64,000 nt of DNA, taken from Lacticaseibacillus paracasei subsp. paracasei. GTDB taxonomy: Bacteria > Bacillota > Bacilli > Lactobacillales > Lactobacillaceae. Below, one piece after another: positions 16,737 through 52,807 of this stretch. The stretch spans positions 1,860,001-1,924,000 of the forward strand of contig NZ_AP012541.1 of the NCBI RefSeq assembly GCF_000829035.1, in the 5' to 3' direction. The position numbers were made by a program, and so were the translations under genes. Every line of letters begins with the position of its first letter. Within the stretch, counting starts at the first letter, position 1. The notes beneath the pieces are model-generated. The model did not search any database and was not told where the DNA came from. It saw only the letters and a program-made list of their open reading frames with translations.

Positions 16737-16809
16737 TGCCGGCTGCAGGAGTCGAACCTGTGACCCTCGGTTTACGATACCGATGCTCTACCAACTGAGC
16801 TAAGCCGGC
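16737..16809 (-). tRNA. tRNA-Thr (CGT)
   Basis: A full cloverleaf is visible: acceptor GCCGGCT/AGCCGGC, discriminator A, anticodon arm TCGGT-ATCGTAA-ACCGA with anticodon CGT, and T arm GGTTCGACTCC. CCA is not encoded. Its 3' end faces the integrase gene, which suggests that the phage integrated here and restored the tRNA end. Confidence 0.93.
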
Positions 16810-16813
16810 ATAC

Positions 16814-16885
16814 TGACCCGTACGGGATTTGAACCCATGTTACCGCCGTGAAAGGGCGGTGTCTTAACCACTTGACCAACGGGCC
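16814..16885 (-). tRNA. tRNA-Glu (TTC)
   Basis: Acceptor GGCCCGT/ACGGGTC, anticodon arm CCGCC-CTTTCAC-GGCGG with anticodon TTC, and a normal T arm give a complete 72-nt tRNA. It is 4 bp upstream of tRNA-Thr and cotranscribed with it. Confidence 0.95.
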
Positions 16886-17059
16886 ATTGCTGAACAACAA
16901 ATAAGATTATACAGGAGCACTATCGCACTGTAAAGCATTTTTTGATGGTAAATGAGATCATTGGCAGAATCATTTTCTAAGTTAAAATGATTGTCCATCT
17001 ACTTTTTGTAAGTGTATCATGAAAAAGAAACGAATCGTCATGAAAGGATGTTGTTTTAG

Positions 17060-17698
17060 ATGAAGATTGCGATTATTGGTGCCACAGGACATGCAGGTTC
17101 GGCTATTTTTAAGGAGGCCCTCAAACGAGGCCATGAAGTGACCGGTTATGTTCGCCATCCAGATAAAAGTGTTGGAATCTTGCCACCGGATGCAGATCTG
17201 ATTCAACAAGATGCGTTCACGTTGACGCGCGAGCAGTTGACGGGTTATGACGCTGTTATTGATGCTTTTGCGACAACTGTTGAGCAAGCTTATCTCCACA
17301 TTGATCTGGCCGACCACTTAATTCATGAGTTACGCAACACTGATAAGCCACGTGTGATTTTTATTCTCGGCGCAGGCAGTCTAAAGAATGGCGACCAGAC
17401 ATTGTATGATACACTAAAAAAAGATCCACACGCTGCTGCTTTTATTAATACACCATTGAATCAATTTCGGGAACTGCAGTTGTTACGGTGGACCGATAAT
17501 GTAAACTGGCTTGGTATTTCGCCAAGCGCTAACTTTCAGCCTGGACCAGCTACAGCCTACGTACGTGGTAAAGACGAGCTGTTGAAAGATGATAGCGGCA
17601 AATCTGTCTTAAATAGCGACACACTTGCCGTTGCCTTGCTAGATGAGCTCGAAAACCCGACCATCAAACAAGCACGCTTCACAGCTCGCAATGCTTAA
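17060..17698 (+). CDS. NAD(P)-binding oxidoreductase, SDR-like
   Basis: The 212-residue protein opens with a Rossmann nucleotide-binding motif (KIAIIGATGHAGSAIFKEAL) and belongs to the NmrA/YwnB-like atypical short-chain dehydrogenases. These are cytoplasmic NAD(P)H-dependent enzymes or redox sensors without the usual YxxxK active site, and none is seen here. The Asp and Thr pattern after the second beta strand (DAVIDAFATTVEQ) fits that group. AAAGGATG lies before the ATG. The next gene, a MucBP protein, follows after 38 bp. The substrate is unknown. Confidence 0.8.
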   Translation: MKIAIIGATGHAGSAIFKEALKRGHEVTGYVRHPDKSVGILPPDADLIQQDAFTLTREQLTGYDAVIDAFATTVEQAYLHIDLADHLIHELRNTDKPRVIFILGAGSLKNGDQTLYDTLKKDPHAAAFINTPLNQFRELQLLRWTDNVNWLGISPSANFQPGPATAYVRGKDELLKDDSGKSVLNSDTLAVALLDELENPTIKQARFTARNA

Positions 17699-17736
17699 CC
17701 GCAACATTTTCTGGACATCACAGAGGAAGGGACATT

Positions 17737-18249
17737 TTGGCACAAGTAAAATTAACCATTCATTATGTTGATGAGACCGGCAAGTCGCTTGGACCTGAGA
17801 ACCATTTAACGAACGCGGTGGGTCAGCGTTTTCGGCTAACGGCACCAACTCTGATTGGCTATAACTTTCAGAAGGCTGTTCTACCAGATGGCAGTGAGGT
17901 TGGCGATCCTACAGTGGTCGGAGTCATGACCAAAGATGAACAACAACTGATCTTTATTTACAGCGCAACAGCCTCTTTAACGTCACAGCCGACACCAGCA
18001 ACATTGGTGATTAAATATGTGGATGAACATCAACAAGACTTACGTGATGTGCAGGTCTTGCACACAAAGACAGGTCATCAGTTCGAACTAACGGCACCTT
18101 TTTTCCCTGGTTATCAGTACCACCATGCATTACTGCCAGGTGGCATGGTGATGTCAGACCAGACAGTATCGGGCCGATTGATTCGCGCACATAACGAACT
18201 CATTTTCTCGTATCGCGTTCACTCACAAAATCACCCCAACAAGATTTAA
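17737..18249 (+). CDS. MucBP-repeat protein without export signal
   Basis: The 170-residue product holds two MucBP-like repeats of about 70 residues, at about 1-70 and 85-155. Each starts with an IxYVDExG motif (LTIHYVDETGKSL; LVIKYVDEHQQDL) and continues with a GYxxxxAxLP strand. Such repeats occur in mucus-binding surface proteins of lactobacilli. Here there is no signal peptide, no LPXTG anchor and no membrane segment. It starts with TTG preceded by GAGGAAGG. It may be a cytoplasmic paralogue or a remnant of a larger adhesin. Confidence 0.75.
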   Translation: MAQVKLTIHYVDETGKSLGPENHLTNAVGQRFRLTAPTLIGYNFQKAVLPDGSEVGDPTVVGVMTKDEQQLIFIYSATASLTSQPTPATLVIKYVDEHQQDLRDVQVLHTKTGHQFELTAPFFPGYQYHHALLPGGMVMSDQTVSGRLIRAHNELIFSYRVHSQNHPNKI

Positions 18250-18253
18250 GATC

Positions 18254-18281
18254 AAAAGCCATTTCTTCGGGAGTGGCTTTT
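18254..18281 (+). terminator. Rho-independent terminator
   Basis: AAAAGCCA pairs with TGGCTTTT around a short loop, followed by TCTTTT. It ends the oxidoreductase-MucBP transcript. Confidence 0.75.
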
Positions 18282-18340
18282 CTTTTACATAAAAGCGCCT
18301 CTTACCTTTTCACACATTCGAGGCGCATTCTTATTAAAAA

Positions 18341-18386
18341 AACCTGCAACACAACATTCAGCTTTCGAATGATTGTGTTGCAGGTT
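18341..18386 (-). terminator. Strong hairpin terminator
   Basis: AACCTGCAACACAA pairs perfectly with TTGTGTTGCAGGTT, with an inner CATTC/GAATG extension. On the minus strand a T run follows. It ends the membrane-protein gene at 18402-18926. Confidence 0.85.
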
Positions 18387-18401
18387 AATCGATGCTCTGA
18401 G

Positions 18402-18926
18402 TCATTGTCCTGACAAGAAACTAGTTAAGGCACTTGTTCCACCCTGTTGTTGCAGCGTTTTAGCATCTTGATAAGCCTGATAGTAATCGCCTGATGCAAT
18501 CGCTTGGCGAATTGGCGTTACAGAACTCTCCTGAAAAAGCGCCGCAGCAGCCATTTCTGCTTGACTATGATTAACACCAGATGCCTTTTGTAAAAGTGAA
18601 GCAGCCTGATCTTGATCCTTAGCCGCAGCCATAATCGTACTCATTTTGGTTGCTTTCAACGTATCGGCAGCCCGTTGGATAGCTGCATCGGTTGTCGCAT
18701 CACCAGTCTTTTGAGCTGTAATGCCGGAAACGAGACGAGCTTTAACTGCAGAATCAACAGGCGTGTCATTACCCGTCACATTACGAACCGTGTTATTCAG
18801 TTGAGGGAAAAAGAAAACCCCTGCGATAATGAGCAAGATCAACACACCCATGATAATTGAAAAGATCTTAAGTCCACGATGGGCGTGCTTTTTATTTTGT
18901 TGGCGTAATTGTAATCGATTGTCCAT
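18402..18926 (-). CDS. Single-span membrane protein, unknown
   Basis: The 174-residue protein has a basic N-terminus (MDNRLQLRQQNKKHAHRGLK), one transmembrane helix at about residues 20-43 and an extracellular part of about 130 residues. That part is rich in Ala and Gln, with alternating small helices (AAAKDQDQAASLLQKASG). GAAGTGAC lies before ATG 18926; further in-frame ATGs up to 18962 lack a ribosome site. No family is recognised. It could be a signal-anchored surface protein or lysozyme-inhibitor-like protein. Confidence 0.7.
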   Translation of the reverse strand: MDNRLQLRQQNKKHAHRGLKIFSIIMGVLILLIIAGVFFFPQLNNTVRNVTGNDTPVDSAVKARLVSGITAQKTGDATTDAAIQRAADTLKATKMSTIMAAAKDQDQAASLLQKASGVNHSQAEMAAAALFQESSVTPIRQAIASGDYYQAYQDAKTLQQQGGTSALTSFLSGQ

Positions 18927-19094
18927 GTCTGTCACTTCTTTCATTTGTGATGGCTGGTACATATTATGAGAGTGATCGTACAGCGGGTCAAGTTAAACCA
19001 GTTATTCATGACTGGTCCAGCCTGTTCTTAATCCTTGTTTAAAGACCTGCAAATAATATTAAAAAAAGACACCCTTTGCAGGATGTCTCATGAG

Positions 19095-19167
19095 CTCCGG
19101 TTGTCAGGCTCGAACTGACGACAACCTGATTAACAGTCAGGTGCTCTACCAACTGAGCTAAACCGGA
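19095..19167 (-). tRNA. tRNA-Asn (GTT)
   Basis: Acceptor TCCGGTT/AACCGGA, anticodon arm CCTGA-CTGTTAA-TCAGG with anticodon GTT, and T arm CAGTTCGAGCCTG. It is the last gene of the rRNA operon, 9 bp after 5S rRNA. Confidence 0.96.
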
Positions 19168-19176
19168 ATAAAAAAA

Positions 19177-19294
19177 GCGTGGCAGCTTCCTACCCTCGCA
19201 GGCAGTTTCCCACCAACTACTCTCGGCGTGAAGAAGCTTAACTTCTGTGTTCGGCATGGGAACAGGTGTATCCTTCTTGCTATCGCCACCACAC
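19177..19294 (-). rRNA. rrf: 5S ribosomal RNA
   Basis: The minus strand carries the typical 5S sequence of about 117 nt, with CCATGCCGAACACAGAAGTT as the conserved middle. The ends are estimated to within a few bases from the pairing of the terminal helix. Confidence 0.95.
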
Positions 19295-19377
19295 TTATGA
19301 GAACTTTGCGCTCTCAAAACTGGCTATCATTGTTTAATTGCTGCCTTGAACCTAACGTACTTGTCATCGAAATGTGT

Positions 19378-19395
19378 TCGCAGTCGCAGAAACCT
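19378..19395. repeat. Short piece of the dispersed hairpin element
   Basis: TCGCAGTCGCAGAAACCT lies in the 23S-5S spacer. The same 18 bases occur in two units of the repeat array upstream of the amino acid permease (31442-31480 and 31692-31735). It may be a remnant of that element. Confidence 0.4.
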
Positions 19396-19417
19396 GCGCC
19401 TGCTTGCACGCTTACTT

Positions 19418-22333
<2,916 letters not shown>

Positions 22334-22493
22334 TGTACTGACTTGCGTCAGCGGTTATGCGATGCGAATTTCTTTTTCAGAAACTCATACAAATACGCTG
22401 TGTTCTCGGCAATTTAAAACAATTAATACAATGATATCCAGTTTTCAAAGAACAAAGTAGCCGACTTTCGTCGGTCATTGGCCTTTCGGCCAA

Positions 22494-22566
22494 TGGAGGA
22501 TAACGGGATCGAACCGATGACCTCCTGCTTGCAAAGCAGGCGCTCTCCCAGCTGAGCTAATCCCCC
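22494..22566 (-). tRNA. tRNA-Ala (TGC)
   Basis: Acceptor GGGGGAT/ATCCTCC, anticodon arm CCTGC-TTTGCAA-GCAGG with anticodon TGC. It sits in the 16S-23S spacer together with tRNA-Ile. Confidence 0.97.
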
Positions 22567-22600
22567 ATAAGGGTTGTTCAATTAACAAGCGTACGCTTGA

Positions 22601-22674
22601 TGGGCCTAGATGGACTTGAACCATCGACCTCACGCTTATCAAGCGTGCGCTCTAACCAACTGAGCTATAGGCCC
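22601..22674 (-). tRNA. tRNA-Ile (GAT)
   Basis: Acceptor GGGCCTA/TAGGCCC, anticodon arm ACGCT-TGATAAG-CGT type with anticodon GAT, 74 nt. It is the first tRNA in the 16S-23S spacer. Confidence 0.97.
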
Positions 22675-22753
22675 GATAGGCGTGAAGAGGTTATCCTCTC
22701 AAAACTAAACAAAGTTTCGTGTGTGCAGGTTTCCGTCAGACTTTCAGTCTGTT

Positions 22754-24328
<1,575 letters not shown>

Positions 24329-24488
24329 AAATATGAGCTGTTCGAATAGCTCGATTTGTTGTTCTAGCGAATTGACTTCGCAAATGTTACTTTTTGCCTC
24401 GGTACCGAAGTACCAAGGACCCTGCACATTTAAACGAAACTTTGTTCAGTTTTCAAAGGACGACCTTGTCAAAAGACAACTTTCATAT

Positions 24489-31314: not shown

Positions 31315-31703
31315 TAGCTTTCTATAACGCACGAACCAGCCCAGAAACCTGCGCATAAGGACCTTGGACGCAATGGTCAAAACCCGGCCGCCCGTTTAGA
31401 TTTAAGGCATCTTTCGACTGGCGGCCGTAACTGATACTGTGCTAGCTTTCTATAACGCGCTCGCAGTCGCAGAAACCTACACATAAGGACGTCGGCCCTA
31501 ACGGCTGGCCCGTTTAGATTCTCACAGCATTTTTCGACTGAGTGGCTCATAATCGGCTCTTGGGTAGCTTTCTATAACGCGCGAACCAGCCCAGAAACCT
31601 ACACATAAGGACCTTGGACGCAATGGTCAAAACCCGGCCGCCCGTTTAGATTTAAGGCATCTTTCGACTGGCGGCCGTAACTGATACTGTGCTAGCTTTC
31701 TAT
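31315..31703 (-). repeat. Tandem partial copies of the hairpin element
   Basis: Units begin at 31315, 31443, 31565 and 31693 with TAGCTTTCTATAACGC and continue with CAGAAACCT-CATAAGGAC, the conserved 3' half of the dispersed element. Units 1 and 3 are almost identical over about 128 bp and contain a second hairpin CGGCCGCC/GGCGGCCG. The pattern 1-2-1-2 has a 250-bp super-period, so it grew by a duplication. In the permease sense the array is read as leader RNA. Confidence 0.75.
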
Positions 31704-31822
31704 AACGCGCTCGCAGTCGCAGAAACCTACACATAAGGACCTTGAGCCTAAATGGCCAAAGCCCGGCCATTTGGGTTCAAGGCCACTTATGTTCCGGTTT
31801 CTAAGCGCTCCTGCTCGCGCTC
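31704..31822 (-). repeat. Hairpin element copy C
   Basis: A full copy, in the minus sense, starts GAGCGCGAGCAGG, then CTTAGAAACCGGAACATAAG. The inner stem CCTTGA..CCC(A/T)AATGGCC pairs with GGCCATTTAGGCTCAAGG. It ends with CCTTATGTGTAGGTTTCTG. It lies at the upstream end of the tandem array. Confidence 0.75.
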
Positions 31823-32127
31823 ACAAAAAAAGCCAACGGGCGAGAATCAACCCATCAGCTTATCATTTTTCTTGCAATGACTAAACGTGATCCGATTCAT
31901 TAGCGCCCCGCGATGTTCGCGACAGTCCAGCGGATGTTGTCCAACTGGCCCAATGTCGGATTTCTGAACAAATCCGGCATTTCGGCATCCACCCCTTTTG
32001 CAACCGCGCATCTGGCGTTCAGGCCATTGCGGTTAGGATTCATGACAGATGCAACCTCTAATCGTTATTGGTTTACACGTTAACATGTTCGGCCTTCAAC
32101 AGCAACTGCCTCTCACAAGGCTTTAAC
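31823..32127. other. Gap without genes
   Basis: No reading frame with a ribosome site is seen. A short inverted repeat around GCCGGATTTGTTCAG / AAATCCGAC (about 31953-31983) could fold. The stretch looks like degraded sequence beyond the alsD 3' end. Confidence 0.5.
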
Positions 32128-38798: not shown

Positions 38799-38916
38799 GA
38801 GCGTGAACTGATGCGGTTAGAAACCGGAACATAAGTGGGCTGGGACGCGATGACTGCACTTTGGTCATTGTGGCCAAGGTCCTTATGAGGAGGTTCCTGC
38901 GCCAGTGATCGCGTTT
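38799..38916 (+). repeat. Hairpin element copy D
   Basis: In the plus sense the copy reads GAGCGTGAACTG, GGTTAGAAACCGGAACATAA, a variable inner part with GATGAC/GTCAT pairing, and GGTCCTTATGAGGAGGTTCC. It begins 43 bp after the DUF916 stop and is followed after 5 bp by copy E. Confidence 0.7.
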
Positions 38917-38921
38917 AAAAA

Positions 38922-39041
38922 GAGCGTGAATTGGCGCGGTTAGAAACCGGCATATAAGTGGCCTCAAATGCAATGATGCGCCGCCATGGTCATTGTGCTC
39001 GAGGTCCTTGTGAGACGGTTTAGGCGTCAGTGAGCACGTTT
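38922..39041 (+). repeat. Hairpin element copy E
   Basis: The copy starts GAGCGTGAATTGG, then GGTTAGAAACCGGCATATAA. The inner stem is CCTC with GAGG and CAATGA with TCATTG. It ends GTCAGTGAGCACGTTT, directly joined to the AAAGGAGG ribosome site of the gene at 39057. Confidence 0.7.
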
Positions 39042-45608: not shown

Positions 45609-47012
45609 TCAATCATGCGTCGGCTCAAAACTTAGCGACACCTTCTGCTCCGGCACATCATAAAACGGATCTTCGCGCCGGCCAAGAAAATCTTTAGCTT
45701 GATCTGGGAACAAAGCATAGCTTAAGACATCCTCTTCGTCGTGCGCATATTGTGCAATCGCTTGACGGAAATCAGGCATTTGCGGCTTGATTAAATCCGC
45801 GGGACGTTGTGTGACAACCGGTGCATCACCAATGATCTTTTTCACCATTTCGGGTGCAATTGCCACTGGCGGCCGACCATAAAGGCCGCGCACGTAATCC
45901 TTAATTTCATTTGGAATCAACTTATAACGCTCACCGCTCATGACATTCATCAAACTTTGTGTGCCCACCATCTGCGACAGCGGTGTAACCAACGGCGGAT
46001 AGCCTAAGTCAGCTCGGACACGCGGCACTTCCTTCAAAACATCGCCATAAAGTGCTTCTTGTCCTTGATCTTTTAGTTGCGCCAACAGGTTAGACAACAT
46101 CCCGCCTGGCACCTGATAGATCAAGGATTTAGGTTCAACATCTTTCACGCGCGGATTCAGTTGACCGGACTCGCGGAATCGATCGCGAATCGGCGCAAAG
46201 TAAGTGGCGATGTCACTGACCGTGCTTAAATCAACATCAGTCGGATAGCCAAGATCTTGCAACGCAACCAGCATGGATTCTGTTGCTGGCTGACTGGTGC
46301 CGCCAGCAAATGGCGAAACCGCGGTATCAATGATATCAGCACCGGCGCGAACTGCTTCCAGATACGTCATCTCAGCCATACCAGCGGTGGCGTGCGTATG
46401 CACTTCCAGTGGCACGCTGATTTCCTGCTTAATACCGGTAACCAGATCAAACGCCTTCTGTGGGGTTAAAATGCCTGCCATGTCTTTGATTGCAATTGAA
46501 TCCGCATCCATGTCAGCCATGTCTTTGGCTAACTTGATGAAGTAGTCGATCGTATGGAAATCACTGGTTGTGTAACAAATAGCAAGTTGAGCATGCCCGC
46601 CTGCTTGCTTCGTCGCTTCAAGCGCCGTTCGCAAGTTGCGTGTATCATTCAACGCATCGAAAATACGAATGATATCAATCCCGTTTTCAACTGACTTTGT
46701 GACAAAGTCAGTGACCACATCGTCGGCATAGTTCTTGTAACCTAGCAAGTTTTGCCCGCGCAAGAGCATTTGCAATTTGGTGTGCTTGACCGTCTTACGA
46801 ATCTTGCGCAACCGTTCCCACGGATCTTCATTCAGATAACGGAGACAGGCATCAAAAGTTGCCCCGCCCCACATTTCCAAAGATGCATAGCCGGCGGCAT
46901 CCATTTTATCGAGAATCGGCAAAATATCACTGAGCGGCATCCGCGTGGCAATCAGGCTTTGTTGCCCGTCACGCAAAACGGTTTCCATGAATTGGACTTT
47001 CTGTTTAGGCAT
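45609..47012 (-). CDS. oadA: Oxaloacetate decarboxylase alpha subunit
   Basis: The 467-residue carboxyltransferase moves CO2 from oxaloacetate to the biotin of OadD and leaves pyruvate. N-terminal ETVLRDGQQSLIATRMPLSD and the metal-binding HTH (PLEVHTHATAGMAEM) mark the HMGL/PYC-type barrel. A C-terminal conserved carboxylase domain follows. The biotin domain is absent and encoded by oadD. The start is ATG 47012 with AAAAGGAGG, which directly follows hairpin element B. An upstream frame to 47234 is rejected. Confidence 0.93.
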   Translation of the reverse strand: MPKQKVQFMETVLRDGQQSLIATRMPLSDILPILDKMDAAGYASLEMWGGATFDACLRYLNEDPWERLRKIRKTVKHTKLQMLLRGQNLLGYKNYADDVVTDFVTKSVENGIDIIRIFDALNDTRNLRTALEATKQAGGHAQLAICYTTSDFHTIDYFIKLAKDMADMDADSIAIKDMAGILTPQKAFDLVTGIKQEISVPLEVHTHATAGMAEMTYLEAVRAGADIIDTAVSPFAGGTSQPATESMLVALQDLGYPTDVDLSTVSDIATYFAPIRDRFRESGQLNPRVKDVEPKSLIYQVPGGMLSNLLAQLKDQGQEALYGDVLKEVPRVRADLGYPPLVTPLSQMVGTQSLMNVMSGERYKLIPNEIKDYVRGLYGRPPVAIAPEMVKKIIGDAPVVTQRPADLIKPQMPDFRQAIAQYAHDEEDVLSYALFPDQAKDFLGRREDPFYDVPEQKVSLSFEPTHD

Positions 47013-47029
47013 GGGGTGTCCTCCTTTTA

Positions 47030-47147
47030 AAACGCATTCACTGACCCAGAAACCTGCACATAAGGACCACAAGTGCAATGGGCAAAGCCCGGCCATCACA
47101 CTTGTGCCCACATATGCTCCGGTTTCTAAGCGGTCTGGCTCGCGCTC
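47030..47147 (-). repeat. Hairpin element copy B
   Basis: In the minus sense it reads GAGCGCGAGCCAG, CTTAGAAACCGGAGCATATG, an inner stem CACAAGTG/CACTTGTG, and CCTTATGTGCAGGTTTCTG. It starts inside the last codons of citX and ends before the ribosome site of oadA. Confidence 0.75.
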
Positions 47148-47674
47148 TCTTTTACGATTGTTTCCACCACTTGTTGTACCTCTGGCAAACCGTGCCGCCG
47201 TGATCGCGCACAGGCCTTGGCGTCGCCGCCGCAAACCAGACAGGCACGTGGTGGCAAGGCAAGGTCCGTGCGAGAAACTTGATACAGTTCCGCATCGCGT
47301 AACGTGACAACATCAAGATCCAGCAGGTCACAGAACCGTTGCTGATTTTCAAACGCGACCATGAGCCGCTTGAGTGACAAAGGTGACAGCGTGGTCAAAA
47401 AATAAGCTTCCGGTCCAGTTGGCAATAAGTCAATGTCCGAAGATCGAACGGCCTCGCCAAGTTGCTGTGCCAAGGTCTGCATGACCGCCGAAAAAACGAC
47501 TTCAATTCGAGTACCGGTTTTAACCGGTCCAGGAATGCGCAAAGTCACGTGCAAGAGCGTATTGGTTGGGGCAGCCACCAACAACGCTCGCTCTTTAACC
47601 ACGCGAGCATCTTTGGCGGCCAGCATTTGACCAAGATCAACTTGCGGACCATTTAAAATGGTTAATTTAAACAT
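47126..47674 (-). CDS. citX: Apo-citrate lyase transferase CitX
   Basis: The 182-residue enzyme attaches the phosphoribosyl-dephospho-CoA group to Ser of CitD. The typical end LPPRACLVCGGDAKACARSR is present. ATG 47674 overlaps citF by 8 bp; an extra upstream ATG at 47686 lacks support. The last seven residues (ESASQTA) and the stop codon come from hairpin element B, so the natural C-terminus was altered by the insertion. Confidence 0.9.
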   Translation of the reverse strand: MFKLTILNGPQVDLGQMLAAKDARVVKERALLVAAPTNTLLHVTLRIPGPVKTGTRIEVVFSAVMQTLAQQLGEAVRSSDIDLLPTGPEAYFLTTLSPLSLKRLMVAFENQQRFCDLLDLDVVTLRDAELYQVSRTDLALPPRACLVCGGDAKACARSRRHGLPEVQQVVETIVKESASQTA

Positions 47675-49199
47675 TGTGAACCACATCGATCAAGGTGCCA
47701 TCGCGATATTCGATCAAAGCGACCACTTTATCGCCATATTCGATGGCTTCCGGTGTACCAGTAATTTGATAGGCCATCTTTTTCAGATCTTCAATTGAAA
47801 ACAGCGGCACTTTCAGATTTTTAAACATTTCAATCAAATCAGTCCGTGCGGGATTAATAGCGACGCCGACTTCGGTCACGACAACGTCAACACTGGCACC
47901 CGGTGTCACAACAGTATTGACATTTTCAACAATCGTTGGGATTCGACCGCGAACCAGTGGCGCAATCACCATGCTCATTTTGCAGGCAGCACTTGTGTCA
48001 CTATGGCCACCGGAAGCGCCACGGATAATGCCGTCAGAACCCGTGATCACGTTAACGTTAAAGTTAGTATCAATTTCCAGTGCCGATAAAATCGCAATAT
48101 CTAACTGATTGATAACTGCACCTTTGCTTAACGGTGACGCGTACATATTAGCATCAATCTCGTAATGATCTGCGTTCTCGCCTAATGAAACCGCAGAGGG
48201 ATGGTCAAAGTCCTGCACATCGATAATCTTTTCGACAAGGCCTTCCTTCAACAATTCAACCATTGAATTGGTAATGCCACCCAAAGCAAAACTAGCTTTG
48301 ATGTCTTGATCCAACATCGCTTGCCGCAGAAAACGCGCAACAGCCAGCGAAGAGCCGCCAGTACCGGTCTGGAATGAGAACCCATTTTTGAAGTAGGCCG
48401 ATTTGGTAATGACCTCTGCCGCATACTCCGCAATTTTTAATTCCTTCGGGTTCTTCGTAAAACGGGTCGCACCTTTGGCGATCCCAGTTGGATCGCCAAT
48501 CGCATCAACTTGCACGACATAGTCAACGTCGGTTTGCGGAATGCTGATTGGCGTATTCGGATATGGCATTAAACTGTCAGTAATGGCAACAACTTGATCC
48601 GCATATTTCGCGTCAATCATGGCATAACCTAACGAGCCACAGGTCGCTTTACCTTTTGTGCCGTTAATATTGCCGTACTCATCACTGCTAGGGGCACCAA
48701 GAAAGGCAACATCAATATGAATATCGCCACGAGCAATGGCTCGGGCTCGGCCGCCATGTGAGCGAATCACAACTGGATTCTTCATGATGCCGCTTGAAAT
48801 TGCTGCCCCCACTTTGTCGCGCAAGCCGGAACTGGTGATGTTGGTCACCACACCGTTTTTGATGTGCTCAATCAATGGCTCATGTACATTGGCAATCGAA
48901 CTTGGCGCAATTGACAGGTTCTTGATCCCCATTTTGGCAATCTCAGCTAGGACCATGTTCATCACATAGTCCCCTTCACGAAAATGATGGTGAAAAGAAA
49001 TGGTCATGCCGTCCTTCAGTCCAGTTGCCACAATGGCATCGTGAATTGACGCCACGAGTTTGCTGTGATCCGGCTTAACCGGGTTGATGTGGCGGGCATG
49101 TTCATCATAAGGCTTAATGTTGGCAAACTCGCCGCCATAAACACCGTATTGATCCGCATATGGTTCTGGGATCTCACGGTTGAGTGTATTCTTGACCAT
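47667..49199 (-). CDS. citF: Citrate lyase alpha subunit
   Basis: The 510-residue subunit is the acetyl-ACP:citrate transferase of citrate lyase. It forms citryl-ACP from citrate. Conserved features are SFHHHFREGDYVMN and the glycine-rich GTGGSSLAVARFLR and VITGSDGIIRGASGGHSDT stretches. ATG overlaps the citE stop as TGATG, so translation is coupled. It works with CitE and CitD in the cytoplasm. Confidence 0.95.
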   Translation of the reverse strand: MVKNTLNREIPEPYADQYGVYGGEFANIKPYDEHARHINPVKPDHSKLVASIHDAIVATGLKDGMTISFHHHFREGDYVMNMVLAEIAKMGIKNLSIAPSSIANVHEPLIEHIKNGVVTNITSSGLRDKVGAAISSGIMKNPVVIRSHGGRARAIARGDIHIDVAFLGAPSSDEYGNINGTKGKATCGSLGYAMIDAKYADQVVAITDSLMPYPNTPISIPQTDVDYVVQVDAIGDPTGIAKGATRFTKNPKELKIAEYAAEVITKSAYFKNGFSFQTGTGGSSLAVARFLRQAMLDQDIKASFALGGITNSMVELLKEGLVEKIIDVQDFDHPSAVSLGENADHYEIDANMYASPLSKGAVINQLDIAILSALEIDTNFNVNVITGSDGIIRGASGGHSDTSAACKMSMVIAPLVRGRIPTIVENVNTVVTPGASVDVVVTEVGVAINPARTDLIEMFKNLKVPLFSIEDLKKMAYQITGTPEAIEYGDKVVALIEYRDGTLIDVVHNV

Positions 49200-50077
49200 C
49201 AGTCTACCTCCATTCCTGATGCCTTTGCGAGCGCGATGGTATACTGTGCCCGTTCGACAACTGGCTTATCAACCATCTGCCCGTTCACAGAAACAACCCC
49301 CGCGCCCTTAGCTTCGGCTTCTTTCAAGCCAGCAACAATCTCACGTGCTTTTTGAACTTCCGCCAAAGCAGGGGTAAAAACCCCATTAATGACTGGAATT
49401 TGCCGTGGATTGATGACGGACTTGCCATCAAAGCCAAGCTGTTTGATTAAGGCGGTTTCGTGGCGCAAACCTTCTTCGTTGTCCACTTGTGTATAGACCG
49501 TATCAATCGCCGCGATGCCAGCTTCTCGCGCAGCATGCAGGATATAGTTACGGGCAAAAGACAATTCAGCGCCATCCGTCGAGCGGTGGGTATGTTGACT
49601 CGTCAGATAATCTTCTGCACCCAACGCAATCCCAATCATACGTGATGAAGCTTGTGCGATTTCGCGAGCATTCAAAACCCCTTCAGCCGACTCAATTGCA
49701 GCCATCATGTGCGTGGTGCCATTTTGAATGCCGTACTTCTCTTCAACTGCTGTGATGACAGCATCAACATCAATAATGTCTTGAGCAGTTTCGGTCTTTG
49801 GCAGGCGCACCACATTAATGCCGCCAAGAACCATCGCTTCAATGTCTTGATCCCCGCCTGCATCTAACGCATTCACCCGCACAACTGTTTCCACGCTACT
49901 GTAATCAAAGGTCTTCAGGGCTGAATAAACCAGCATTCGCGCCGTGTCTTTTTCCTTCAAAGAAACAGCATCTTCAAGGTCAAACATGATCGCATCAGCA
50001 CCATAAATCGGAGCATCACGTAACATGCCCGGATTGGCACCAGGCACAAACATCATGGTTCTTCTTAATTTATCCAT
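49199..50077 (-). CDS. citE: Citrate lyase beta subunit
   Basis: The 292-residue citryl-ACP lyase cleaves citryl-ACP to oxaloacetate and acetyl-ACP. The HpcH/HpaI barrel is visible, with the metal-binding FDLEDAVSLKEKD and Arg in VVRVNALDAGG. GAGGAGATCAACG lies before the ATG, inside the end of citD. It overlaps citD by 13 bp and citF by one base. Confidence 0.96.
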   Translation of the reverse strand: MDKLRRTMMFVPGANPGMLRDAPIYGADAIMFDLEDAVSLKEKDTARMLVYSALKTFDYSSVETVVRVNALDAGGDQDIEAMVLGGINVVRLPKTETAQDIIDVDAVITAVEEKYGIQNGTTHMMAAIESAEGVLNAREIAQASSRMIGIALGAEDYLTSQHTHRSTDGAELSFARNYILHAAREAGIAAIDTVYTQVDNEEGLRHETALIKQLGFDGKSVINPRQIPVINGVFTPALAEVQKAREIVAGLKEAEAKGAGVVSVNGQMVDKPVVERAQYTIALAKASGMEVD

Positions 50078-50370
50078 GCGTTGATCTCCTCCCAGTCAAA
50101 CGTCTTATTGTCAGACGCACGATAAACAGCGGCGATCGTCCGCGCCTTGATGGTACAATCCAAGGCGCCTTTGTCATTCGCGTCAACGGCAACATTTTCG
50201 ATTCCTAACTTGGCCAAGGTGGCCTCAATGACTGATCGAATTTGATGACCAAACTGTTTTTCTACACTGCTTTGCAGTTGAATGGCGACCCCACTGGTAG
50301 CCGGTGACAAGGTGATTTGAATATCACTTGATTCCAGCGTACCAGCAGTCGCAGGATGCTTAATTTCCAT
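50065..50370 (-). CDS. citD: Citrate lyase acyl carrier protein
   Basis: The 101-residue acyl carrier has the attachment Ser at position 14 in AGTLESSDIQITLSP, which receives the 2'-(5''-phosphoribosyl)-3'-dephospho-CoA arm. The length is typical for CitD. It overlaps citC by 11 bp and citE by 13 bp. Confidence 0.95.
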   Translation of the reverse strand: MEIKHPATAGTLESSDIQITLSPATSGVAIQLQSSVEKQFGHQIRSVIEATLAKLGIENVAVDANDKGALDCTIKARTIAAVYRASDNKTFDWEEINAWIN

Positions 50371-51364
50371 GTGTCGATCGCTCCTTTATTTCTTGATAAA
50401 CTTCTGGATAAACTAATTGCTGCACGGTTTTCCAATCTTGTTGTGCCATTGCCGCGCGAACACGGGTAGCACTAACAACATCGCCGTCAATCATGAGCCG
50501 CGGCACGACGATCAGTTCAATCTCCGAACCAAATGTTGCCGCTAGTTCCCGATTGTAAATGGCCGTTACCGGCGACAGCGGTTCCTCGCCGACATAGCGA
50601 CGAGTAATCCCCAATACGGGTGCAAGTGCTTGTTTAAAAAGCGCAGCATCCAGCCGAGCTTGGACAGCAGCCACATCGGCATCTGCCCGTTCTTTGAGAA
50701 AATAACTCGGAAAAGTAGTATTTGAGACCATATAGTCATTGGTTGGCAACACCACGACGTTTGGCCAGCGAGCGGCAACTTTTCTAACTAGCGTCAACCG
50801 CTCATCAGCTGCGAACAAAGACCGTTCCGCTGACAGGACGAAAACATAAACAACTGGGTTGGCTTTGGCCGCCGTCTCAATCAGATAGGCATGGCCACGC
50901 GTGATCGGATTGGCATTCATGACAATCGCTGCCGCTGGTTTTTCTGGCCGCCGCTGCTTTTCTAACGAAGAAACATAATCGGTCAAGTTGGGATAACCGC
51001 GTTCAAGTAACACAACAGCATCGGTTGCTGCCAGTTGCTTGAAGCCCAATGACAGGAAAAATTTAACGGTGGTCGGTTTGGTATAGACAAAGCTGTGGGT
51101 CACACCATCATCGTCAAGCCGATCCAGTAATGCCTGAATTACCTGTGCCAACAAGTTTTCATGCTGGGTTGCCGGTGTAACTGCCACTTCCTTGATGATG
51201 TTACCGGAAAGCGAACCAGTTGCCAGTAACGTTTCTCCTTCAAAAATACCAACTGTATAGTCAACCTGACGATCCGCAGCTAACCCGGCAGTCGTCAGCA
51301 AGGCTTGCCATGCTGCTGCTTCTTGCGGATTCAATGCCAGCCAGATTCGTTTTAAAGTTGCCAT
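50360..51364 (-). CDS. citC: [Citrate (pro-3S)-lyase] ligase
   Basis: The 334-residue enzyme acetylates the citrate lyase prosthetic group with ATP and acetate to activate it. A GNAT-like N-terminal part (about residues 1-130) precedes a nucleotidyltransferase part with NANPITRGHAYLIE (HxGH-type motif). ATG 51364 follows the stop of the small subunit gene by one base; an upstream frame to 51394 is rejected. Confidence 0.94.
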   Translation of the reverse strand: MATLKRIWLALNPQEAAAWQALLTTAGLAADRQVDYTVGIFEGETLLATGSLSGNIIKEVAVTPATQHENLLAQVIQALLDRLDDDGVTHSFVYTKPTTVKFFLSLGFKQLAATDAVVLLERGYPNLTDYVSSLEKQRRPEKPAAAIVMNANPITRGHAYLIETAAKANPVVYVFVLSAERSLFAADERLTLVRKVAARWPNVVVLPTNDYMVSNTTFPSYFLKERADADVAAVQARLDAALFKQALAPVLGITRRYVGEEPLSPVTAIYNRELAATFGSEIELIVVPRLMIDGDVVSATRVRAAMAQQDWKTVQQLVYPEVYQEIKERSTHGN

Positions 51365-51365
51365 G

Positions 51366-51509
51366 TTACTTCGCCGCTTTTTTAGCTGGGGCAAATTTCA
51401 GTAATAACTTCGCCACGATATAAATAATGAATAAAACGATGAAGACGCCGCCCATACCGATCAGCATCAATTCACCCGCTTGTTCAACGGCAACTGGGTC
51501 AATTTTCAT
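51366..51509 (-). CDS. Small membrane subunit of oxaloacetate decarboxylase
   Basis: The 47-residue product begins MKIDPVAVEQAGELMLIGMG, has one transmembrane helix (about residues 15-36) and a basic C-terminus (FAPAKKAAK). In citrate clusters a gamma-like small membrane protein of this form holds the decarboxylase complex to the membrane. AGGGAGG precedes the ATG. It lies between hairpin element A and citC. The assignment to OadG is by position and topology, as sequence is too short for certainty. Confidence 0.65.
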   Translation of the reverse strand: MKIDPVAVEQAGELMLIGMGGVFIVLFIIYIVAKLLLKFAPAKKAAK

Positions 51510-51527
51510 GGAAGTACCTCCCTTTTT

Positions 51528-51682
51528 AACGTGCTCACCAGCGCAGTAACCTGCGTGGGTCTAAACGCGATCTCCAGCCCAGAAACCTGCACATAAGGAC
51601 CTCAAGCCAAACTGGCCAAGACCCAGCCAGTTTGGCTTGAGGCCACTTATGCTCCGGTTTCTAACCGGGCTGGCTCACGCTC
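51528..51682 (-). repeat. Hairpin element copy A with extra 3' end
   Basis: The full copy spans 51563-51682 in the minus sense. The inner stem CCTCAAGCCAAACTGGC pairs perfectly with GCCAGTTTGGCTTGAGG; outer arms are AGAAACC/GGTTTCT and CATAAG/CTTATG. A further part (51528-51557) repeats the element's 3' end. The element begins right after the oadB stop and its extra end abuts the AAAAAGGGAGG of the small subunit gene. Confidence 0.8.
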
Positions 51683-52807
51683 TTATGCGCCAAAGAATGA
51701 TAGTAACAGTCCGCCGGCAATGACGGAGCCGATTTGACCGGAAACATTAGCGCCAACGGCATACATCAAAACAAAGTTCTGTGGATCTTCATCGGTTGCC
51801 ATTTTTTGAATCACTCGGCTCGACATTGGGAAAGCGGAAATGCCGGCCGCCCCGATCATTGGGTTAATCTTATCTTTACGGAAAAGATTCAATAATTTGG
51901 CGAACAATACACCCCCGACAGAGTCCATGATGAAGGCGAATAATCCAAAAGCAATGATCATCAATGTTTGAATGTTCAAGAATTGATCAGCTTGTAATTT
52001 AACGGAAATCGTTAGCCCAAGCAGAATCGACACAATATTGACCAATTCGTTTTGCGCGGTGTTAGACAGCCGATCGAGCACCCCACATTCTCGCAGCAGG
52101 TTGCCAAACATCAGGAACCCAACTAACGGTAAGGAAATTGGGGCAATAAACCCGGCAATGATGGTGATAATGATTGGAAACAGAATTTTTGTCGTCTTTG
52201 AAACGCCTTCTGCCTTATAAGTCATCCGAATCCGGCGTTCATGTTTTGTGGTCACTGCCTTGATGGCCATTGGTTGGATGATTGGCACCAATGCCATATA
52301 CGAATACGCAGCGACTGTGATGGCCCCTAACAGATTTGGCGCAAGTTGGTTCGAAACGAAAATCGAAGTCGGGCCGTCTGCGGCACCGATGATGCCAATT
52401 GAAGCCGCTTCTTTGATATTGAAACCGAAGAAGACAGCAACAAAAACGGTGGCAAAGATCCCGAACTGTGCTGCTGCACCGAACAGTAGCATGAATGGGT
52501 TTTGTAATAACGGTCCAAAGTCGATCATGGCGCCGATCCCGATGAAAATTAGCAGTGGGAACAGTTCCGTATTGATACCGGCTTTGAATAAAACATCAAG
52601 CACCCCTTCTGCTTTGGTGCCGCCAACAACTTGGGTCAAGACGCCTGTTCCTGGAAAGTTGACCAGAATGGCGCCCAAGCCCATGGGAACTAAAAGGGTT
52701 GGTTCATATTCTTTTTTGATTCCCAGATACATCAGGAGCGCGCCGATCAGCATCATGGCGATTTGACCTAATGTGATCGTGGTGATTCCGTGAATGAGCG
52801 CTTCCAT
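51683..52807 (-). CDS. oadB: Oxaloacetate decarboxylase beta subunit
   Basis: The 374-residue integral membrane protein decarboxylates carboxybiotin and drives sodium export. It has about ten hydrophobic segments. The conserved GAADGPTSIFVSNQLAP loop, with its Asp, is the sodium path signature, and SVGGVLFAKLLNLF is in the C-terminal half. The length is typical. GGAGGGATGG lies before the ATG, 14 bp after oadD. Confidence 0.94.
   Translation of the reverse strand: MEALIHGITTITLGQIAMMLIGALLMYLGIKKEYEPTLLVPMGLGAILVNFPGTGVLTQVVGGTKAEGVLDVLFKAGINTELFPLLIFIGIGAMIDFGPLLQNPFMLLFGAAAQFGIFATVFVAVFFGFNIKEAASIGIIGAADGPTSIFVSNQLAPNLLGAITVAAYSYMALVPIIQPMAIKAVTTKHERRIRMTYKAEGVSKTTKILFPIIITIIAGFIAPISLPLVGFLMFGNLLRECGVLDRLSNTAQNELVNIVSILLGLTISVKLQADQFLNIQTLMIIAFGLFAFIMDSVGGVLFAKLLNLFRKDKINPMIGAAGISAFPMSSRVIQKMATDEDPQNFVLMYAVGANVSGQIGSVIAGGLLLSFFGA

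Follow-up and report, generated by a model that had tools for sequence, protein, structure and literature searches.

A probable order-wide family of structured, MITE-like elements at gene junctions in the Lactobacillales

A near-complete palindrome of 121 bases lies between two genes in the genome of Lacticaseibacillus paracasei subsp. paracasei, and we ask here what kind of element it is. The window, by which we mean the whole 64,000-nucleotide stretch analyzed (NZ_AP012541.1, 1,860,001-1,924,000), holds further copies, and an initial annotation had proposed, to account for them, either selection on RNA or DNA structure or a mobile palindrome with diverse cores. Strong covariation and mobility are both seen, and the reading we favor, with a probability of about 0.7, is a new family, spread across the order Lactobacillales, of short, structured, non-autonomous MITE-like mobile elements.

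Copies, architecture and distribution

A profile search of the window returns five full and three partial copies, as against none in 20 dinucleotide shuffles. The five full copies are those already placed by the initial annotation, with the correction that the copies at 38799 and 38922 run opposite to the other three, and the partial ones are additional. The profile does not reach the decayed third of an older copy, located past the headline copy and ahead of the next gene's ribosome-binding site.

51562..51682, minus strand: the headline copy, a full element reading GAGCGTGA ... ATCGCGTTTA on that strand
47030..47148, minus strand: full element between citX and an oxaloacetate decarboxylase alpha-type gene (profile search)
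31704..31822, minus strand: full element (profile search)
38799..38916, plus strand: full element, first member of a tandem pair (profile search)
38922..39041, plus strand: full element, second member of the tandem pair, with a lower score (profile search)
31326..31413, minus strand: partial copy, model positions 34-116 (profile search)
31454..31508 (end at 31505 in the profile search), minus strand: partial copy, 3' end only (profile search)
31576..31663, minus strand: partial copy, model positions 34-116 (profile search)
51524..51559, minus strand: decayed 3' third of another, older copy (direct sequence reading)

The three partial copies and one full copy in 31326-31822 adjoin a lysine riboswitch (31893-32068, minus strand); two of these partials share a 5' half, and the inner arm mismatches the 3' half, as if copies had recombined. 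A fixed-gap pattern of AGAAACC and GGTTTCT with 20-50 bases between them gave no matches because the true gap is longer. A terminator or promoter at the headline copy was considered and rejected, since none was found, and 51350-51850, the region around this one copy, contains no rho-independent terminator.

On the minus strand the headline copy reaches a folding energy of -80.8 kcal/mol (shuffles average -41.5 with a standard deviation of 3.5, z -11.1), as against -66.3 kcal/mol on the plus strand, and the fold is one long hairpin on one defined strand. The canonical order is GAGCGTGA, a 7-bp stem, a one-sided bulge (mostly of four bases, GNTT), a second 7-bp stem (AGAAACC/GGTTTCT in most copies of this genome), a small internal loop, CATAAG/CTTATG, a hypervariable stem and ACGCGTTT.

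A covariance model built from 55 copies finds at least 150 copies genome-wide of this non-coding element of about 119-121 bp. Profile searching of 91 stretches (605,156 bases) locates 195 distinct places, 168 of them full-length, and as these stretches were picked around copies the 195 places provide no density estimate. The best 150 copies form the alignment (A2) from which the counts of context, flank matches, copy pairs, placement, stop codons and, for this genome, G-U pairs are taken.

Searching the genus, as the initial annotation had advised, yields matches in 24 of 30 genomes at E 0.001, and with stricter filters than in the genus search 51 of 201 genomes of the family match at 1e-6 and nine of 198 genomes of the order at 1e-5, three of them outside the family; the named and other genome collections may overlap. 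Named matches include those in Lacticaseibacillus zeae, L. chiayiensis, Lentilactobacillus kisonensis, L. dabitei and L. fungorum. Thirteen records of Lactobacillaceae plasmids also carry the element, with hosts including Lactiplantibacillus plantarum, Lacticaseibacillus paracasei and L. rhamnosus, and the phages searched gave no match. A 21-base word in Erysipelotrichaceae (L082) is taken as a chance match because the model does not find the element there.

Three copies, identical to each other and in their flanks, sit in 23S-5S rRNA spacers and are sense to the operon (L140:2527-2642, L141:2468-2583 and L142:2466-2581; genome positions 261826, 822167 and 2608765). About 1.9 kb from the first of these is a match to a different RNA, Lacto-3 (Rfam Ref68, L140:4525-4630). 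The window has one rRNA operon (16S, 23S and 5S) together with five tRNA genes at 16737-24330 on the minus strand, and there is no profile match in its 23S-5S spacer. In a genome from another family of the order (G318, L208), a copy directly follows the apparent 3' end of a tRNA gene.

Mobility and placement at gene junctions

Comparison of occupied and empty sites indicates that the element is mobile. All four related species lack the full element at three compared loci, namely 47031, 51563 and genome position 2700103. At the first of these the two flanks adjoin each other in the relatives, with 1-4 bases between them, and the 47030 copy is flanked by 6-bp direct repeats, CTTTTA, at 47024-47029 and 47149-47154. 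At 2700103 the flanks overlap by exactly six bases in all four relatives, which represents a single copy of the target; this reads TCCTTT, that is, AAAGGA before the start of the next gene. The 51563 site spans 54-57 bases in relatives as against 165-173 in the window, and one of the relatives, G019, has there what looks like a decayed remnant of opposite orientation. A target duplication cannot be read at this site, and 6-bp duplications are readable at two of the three loci.

Other sites are occupied in some of the genomes compared. In the L109 stretch, one site holds copies of opposite orientation in two genomes (one copy in G028, three in G019) and is without them in G005 and G006; at another, G005 and G028 carry copies, and G006 retains a remnant with an internal deletion. 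A remnant on G006 C10, upstream of 53190 (L213), keeps both ends with the hairpin deleted. This remnant suggests that internal loss of the palindrome can occur.

Flank matches of 6 bp are found in seven of 119 clusters of copies, compared with 0.5 from shuffled flanks, and three of the seven are beside another copy-like end; 83 of the 119 clusters have no flank match of at least 3 bp (93 expected from shuffles). The linkers that join tandem copies are often similar to the outer flanks, and of the four arrays with three copies, two have an identical pair of linkers and two a differing pair. Tandem neighbors at 93% or above may have arisen by local duplication instead of insertion. Among the best 150 copies, setting aside the three identical ones in rRNA operons, the closest non-adjacent pair is 94% identical, and with no very recent dispersed pair the activity in this genome looks old.

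The window's cluster of citrate lyase and oxaloacetate decarboxylase genes (45609-52807) carries two elements at gene junctions, with the following genes beside them.

51683..52807, minus strand: oxaloacetate decarboxylase beta subunit gene, before the headline element (PF03977, E 2.3e-157)
51366..51509, minus strand: 47-codon open reading frame after the headline element, probably a small membrane subunit as judged from its translation
47126..47686, minus strand: citX open reading frame (PF03802)
45609..47012, minus strand: oxaloacetate decarboxylase alpha-type gene, after the 47030 copy (PF02436, PF00682)

The stop codon of the beta subunit gene touches the headline element, and citX now ends at a TAG in the bulge of the 47030 copy, at 47126. 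In all four relatives with the empty site the citX frame continues beyond the ribosome-binding site and terminates within the start of the gene that follows; the two genes overlap there and are apart in this genome. Placement of the element thus remodels operon junctions, of which citX at 47030 is an example.

Neighboring genes were assigned genome-wide by a codon-score gene caller with the inside of each copy masked; seven of the 119 clusters, without a neighbor on one side, were left out, and one more was dropped for the sliding test, giving 112 and 111 respectively. The element is in the sense orientation relative to both neighbors in 56 clusters and antisense to both in 29; a further 24 clusters separate divergent genes and three separate convergent ones. 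Convergent gaps are underused (3/112, as against 46 of 468 adjacent gene pairs in the same stretches, p 0.013), and between co-directional genes the sense orientation is favored (56 versus 29, p 0.0045). In 20 of 80 cases a downstream start codon follows the 3' edge at a distance of 16-21 bases, and in 10 of 53 the start of an antisense gene is 15-24 bases away from the 5' edge. When each of the 111 clusters is slid within its own gap (2000 simulations), in a 12-25 base window 22 3' edges are observed near a downstream start where 11.4 are expected (reached in 0/2000) and 10 5' edges near an antisense gene's start where 3.5 are expected (2/2000); proximity to an upstream stop codon is a weaker signal, with 26 observed and 19.8 expected (31/2000). 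Masking affects these counts in two places, in that upstream-gene ends at -12 and -20 (4/59) come from open reading frames that extend into the mask, which is also the cause of a wrong assignment for the 47031 copy. Copies are enriched at stop-codon/Shine-Dalgarno junctions in both orientations, with the upstream-stop part being weak.

Stop codons are also a property of the element itself. In the sense frames of the 150 copies, TGA is at position 6 in 94, TAG at position 20 in 126 and TAA at position 34 in 127, and all three frames are stopped within the first 40 bases in 83, compared with 3.8% of mononucleotide shuffles and five of 150 on the reverse strand. Among 44 copies from other genomes, TGA is present in 16 and the second and third stops in 29 each, and of 32 diverse copies taken with six bases of flank, 14 stop all frames, as against 18% in shuffles. 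Eight genes lying upstream of a copy terminate at its TGA. Overall stop content shows no excess in sense copies relative to the others (p 0.38, 0.80 and 0.20). TGA is commoner where the 5' edge is at the end of the upstream gene (29/35, versus 63/107 elsewhere, p 0.014), which is a hint of local selection.

These observations bear on the main rival explanation, in which the element acts in cis in the mRNA, in processing, stability or the coupling of operon genes, and is kept by selection, with mobility accounting for its spread only. The preference for the sense orientation, the tight placement between stop codon and Shine-Dalgarno sequence, the higher frequency of TGA where it is usable as a stop codon, and the sense orientation of all three identical spacer copies are what this explanation would lead one to expect, and the TGA excess moves us to set it slightly higher, and the mobile-family reading slightly lower. 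However, it accommodates poorly the 29 of 112 clusters antisense to both neighbors and the 24 between divergent genes, as well as the turnover and the sites that are empty in relatives. We consider such a cis-acting role possible but unlikely, and the pairing data described below speak to it from both sides.

Covariation and strand polarity

Within the 55 copies from this genome, 95.5% of cells are paired compared with 86.6% in shuffles, and two-sided changes occur in 24 of 48 pairs, with 271 doubly changed cells versus 88.7 in shuffles, a number reached by none of 500 shuffles. The pairs with double changes comprise none of six in the outermost helix, six of seven in the second, one of seven in AGAAACC/GGTTTCT and 17 of 28 in the inner stem. 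The initial annotation's description of conserved outer words enclosing an inner stem that varies and still pairs therefore holds in this genome, and the genome-wide covariation that it called for is strong.

The 44 copies from other genomes represent 31 other loci in 30 genomes or plasmids and four families of the order; their alignment (A4) was cut at E 3e-12 and keeps one strand per copy, and an alignment with both strands of some copies (A3) was excluded from the counts. Two-sided changes are found here in 44 of 46 pairs, involving all five helices, 94.3% of cells pair versus 62.7% in shuffles, with a covariation score of 0.857 versus 0.227. Fitting this alignment to the model biases these figures toward the structure. 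The AGAAACC helix covaries in other genera at seven of seven pairs and the CATAAG helix at six of seven. Because a mobile element can give rise to very strong covariation, covariation alone does not signify a riboswitch.

A switch had been proposed more specifically, with a local GGTT-AGA-AACC stem and the distant pairing of AGAAACC with GGTTTCT as mutually exclusive folds. The local stem is complete in only 66 of the 142 copies (out of 150) that have letters in all of its columns, and G, T or C can stand at its second position with AACC mostly staying the same, and we reject a bistable RNA switch.

The structure has a strand polarity. At pairs with a Watson-Crick majority, G-U exceeds A-C by 185 to 105 in this genome and by 126 to 22 at the same class of pair in the 44 copies from other genomes, the latter count leaning to G-U since the strand in A4 was set by a model that scores G-U as a pair. 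The excess is present in copies sense to their neighbors (84 to 56) and in antisense copies (42 to 23), and mean pairing is alike in the two. Orientation has no link to the direction of replication (80 minus and 70 plus, near-equal in both halves), taking the contig start as the origin and the terminus as near 1.5 Mb. The preference for G-U over A-C on one strand counts in favor of a cis-acting mRNA element, but since pairing and G-U bias do not differ with the orientation of the neighboring genes, they speak against a cis-acting mRNA switch. This independence of gene context suggests that both belong to the propagating lineage and not to selection at each site, and the fold is probably kept up while the element propagates.

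Comparisons of closely related copies, whose counts are mutually non-independent, show how the pairing changes. In the 36 closest dispersed pairs (90-97% identical), 47 base pairs are changed on both sides compared with 6.4 under independence, and block exchange between copies could be the source of part of these. One-sided changes keep pairing in 14 of 27 cases in the 10 least diverged tandem pairs and in 43 of 111 in the 36 close dispersed pairs, above the Watson-Crick expectation of 28%, which again fits a cis-acting mRNA element kept by selection.

A second explanation is that the palindrome is neutral, with its arms kept alike by template-switch (quasi-palindrome) correction and no selection on structure. 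A few copies (e.g. in L035, L023 and L037) are without the conserved mismatches and are perfect there, as such correction would produce. Against it, the one-sided bulge is present in 26 of 32 diverse copies folded singly and without the model, and correction predicts equal frequencies of G-U and A-C, which are observed to be unequal. The 10 least diverged tandem pairs add little, as their zero doubly changed pairs in 453 cells compare with only 0.4 expected without correction. We regard correction of this kind as very improbable.

Proposed mechanism and relation to known systems

For a family of mobile MITE-like elements, the following scheme would account for these features. A transposition machine acting in trans would recognize three features of the folded strand, namely its ends, bulge and internal loop, and would need the distal stem only as a stem, such that the distal stem could drift freely and yet stay paired. 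Upon insertion, the stops in the first 36 bases would supply the upstream gene with a stop codon, and the target duplication could repeat the ribosome-binding site so that the downstream gene keeps one; together these would make insertion at a junction tolerable. Copies would then decay. Searches of enzyme families and neighbor proteins found no mobilizing enzyme, and among the proteins beside copies no family recurs beyond pairs; the whole element is itself palindromic. Single changes that keep pairing and the TGA excess leave room for selection in place. In a stronger version the element would be an order-wide parasite that is copied, by machinery belonging to none of the known IS families, from its own folded strand of RNA or single-stranded DNA, and that is aimed at stop-codon/Shine-Dalgarno junctions, where the three-frame stop and the duplicated ribosome-binding site would spare both operon genes; in this full form we consider it doubtful.

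The initial annotation had also pointed to Rfam, and no family in Rfam 15 reaches its gathering score at the element, the best sub-threshold match being to a miRNA model (36.6 bits versus a gathering score of 100). No title or abstract among the open-access literature matches listed describes it. MITE-like structured repeats are nonetheless an already known kind. The element is short and non-coding with many dispersed copies (168 full-length, about 120 bp), is highly base-paired, and has a 6-bp target duplication at 2700103 and 47030, most other copies showing none. MITEs are characterized as AT-rich (PMC3049150), whereas the copies have a median G+C of 0.56 compared with 0.47 for the sampled genome, and because they are richer in G+C than the genome we term them MITE-like and do not file them as MITEs.

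The attC sites of integrons are folded single strands with a one-sided bulge and a variable terminal stem. A hairpin substrate of a site-specific recombinase of this type would match the architecture and the one-strand polarity, but it is hardly credible given that the integron integrase (TIGR02249) is above cut-off in none of 30 genus genomes (sub-threshold matches occur in 14 of 14 control genomes too) and that the insertions are dispersed, with a 6-bp duplication, and form no cassette arrays.

The mobile-family reading can be compared with several groups of dispersed repeats. The REP or GTAG elements associated with RAYT proteins are likewise dispersed palindromes with many copies, and are described as 20-40 bp long with a GTAG end (PMC3733652). 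The element differs in having a 6-bp target duplication and in the lack of a Y1 transposase in its genome, where PF01797 (Y1, IS200/IS605-like transposase) has no matches, as against matches in five of 14 control genomes, and a REP/RAYT assignment was rejected. The EFAR elements of enterococci, which by description are comparable in belonging to a related group, are counted among bacterial MITEs (PMC3733652). The bcr1-bcr3 repeats of the Bacillus cereus group, also set beside the element by description only, share its intergenic location and high copy number, and are described as resembling MITEs in structure and function and as often lying in UTRs or operon gaps (PMC3446304).

The BOX elements of Streptococcus pneumoniae have a modular boxA-boxB-boxC organization and, by description, are similar in being interspersed repeats that supply stop codons to genes. 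A BOX-encoded stop codon ends 36 annotated genes, and the excerpted description of BOX does not include a three-frame stop array or a Shine-Dalgarno target (PMC3049150). What is new here is the architecture conserved across the order, the placement at gene junctions and the stops in three frames, and its copies amount to a large natural collection of insertions from food-related bacteria.
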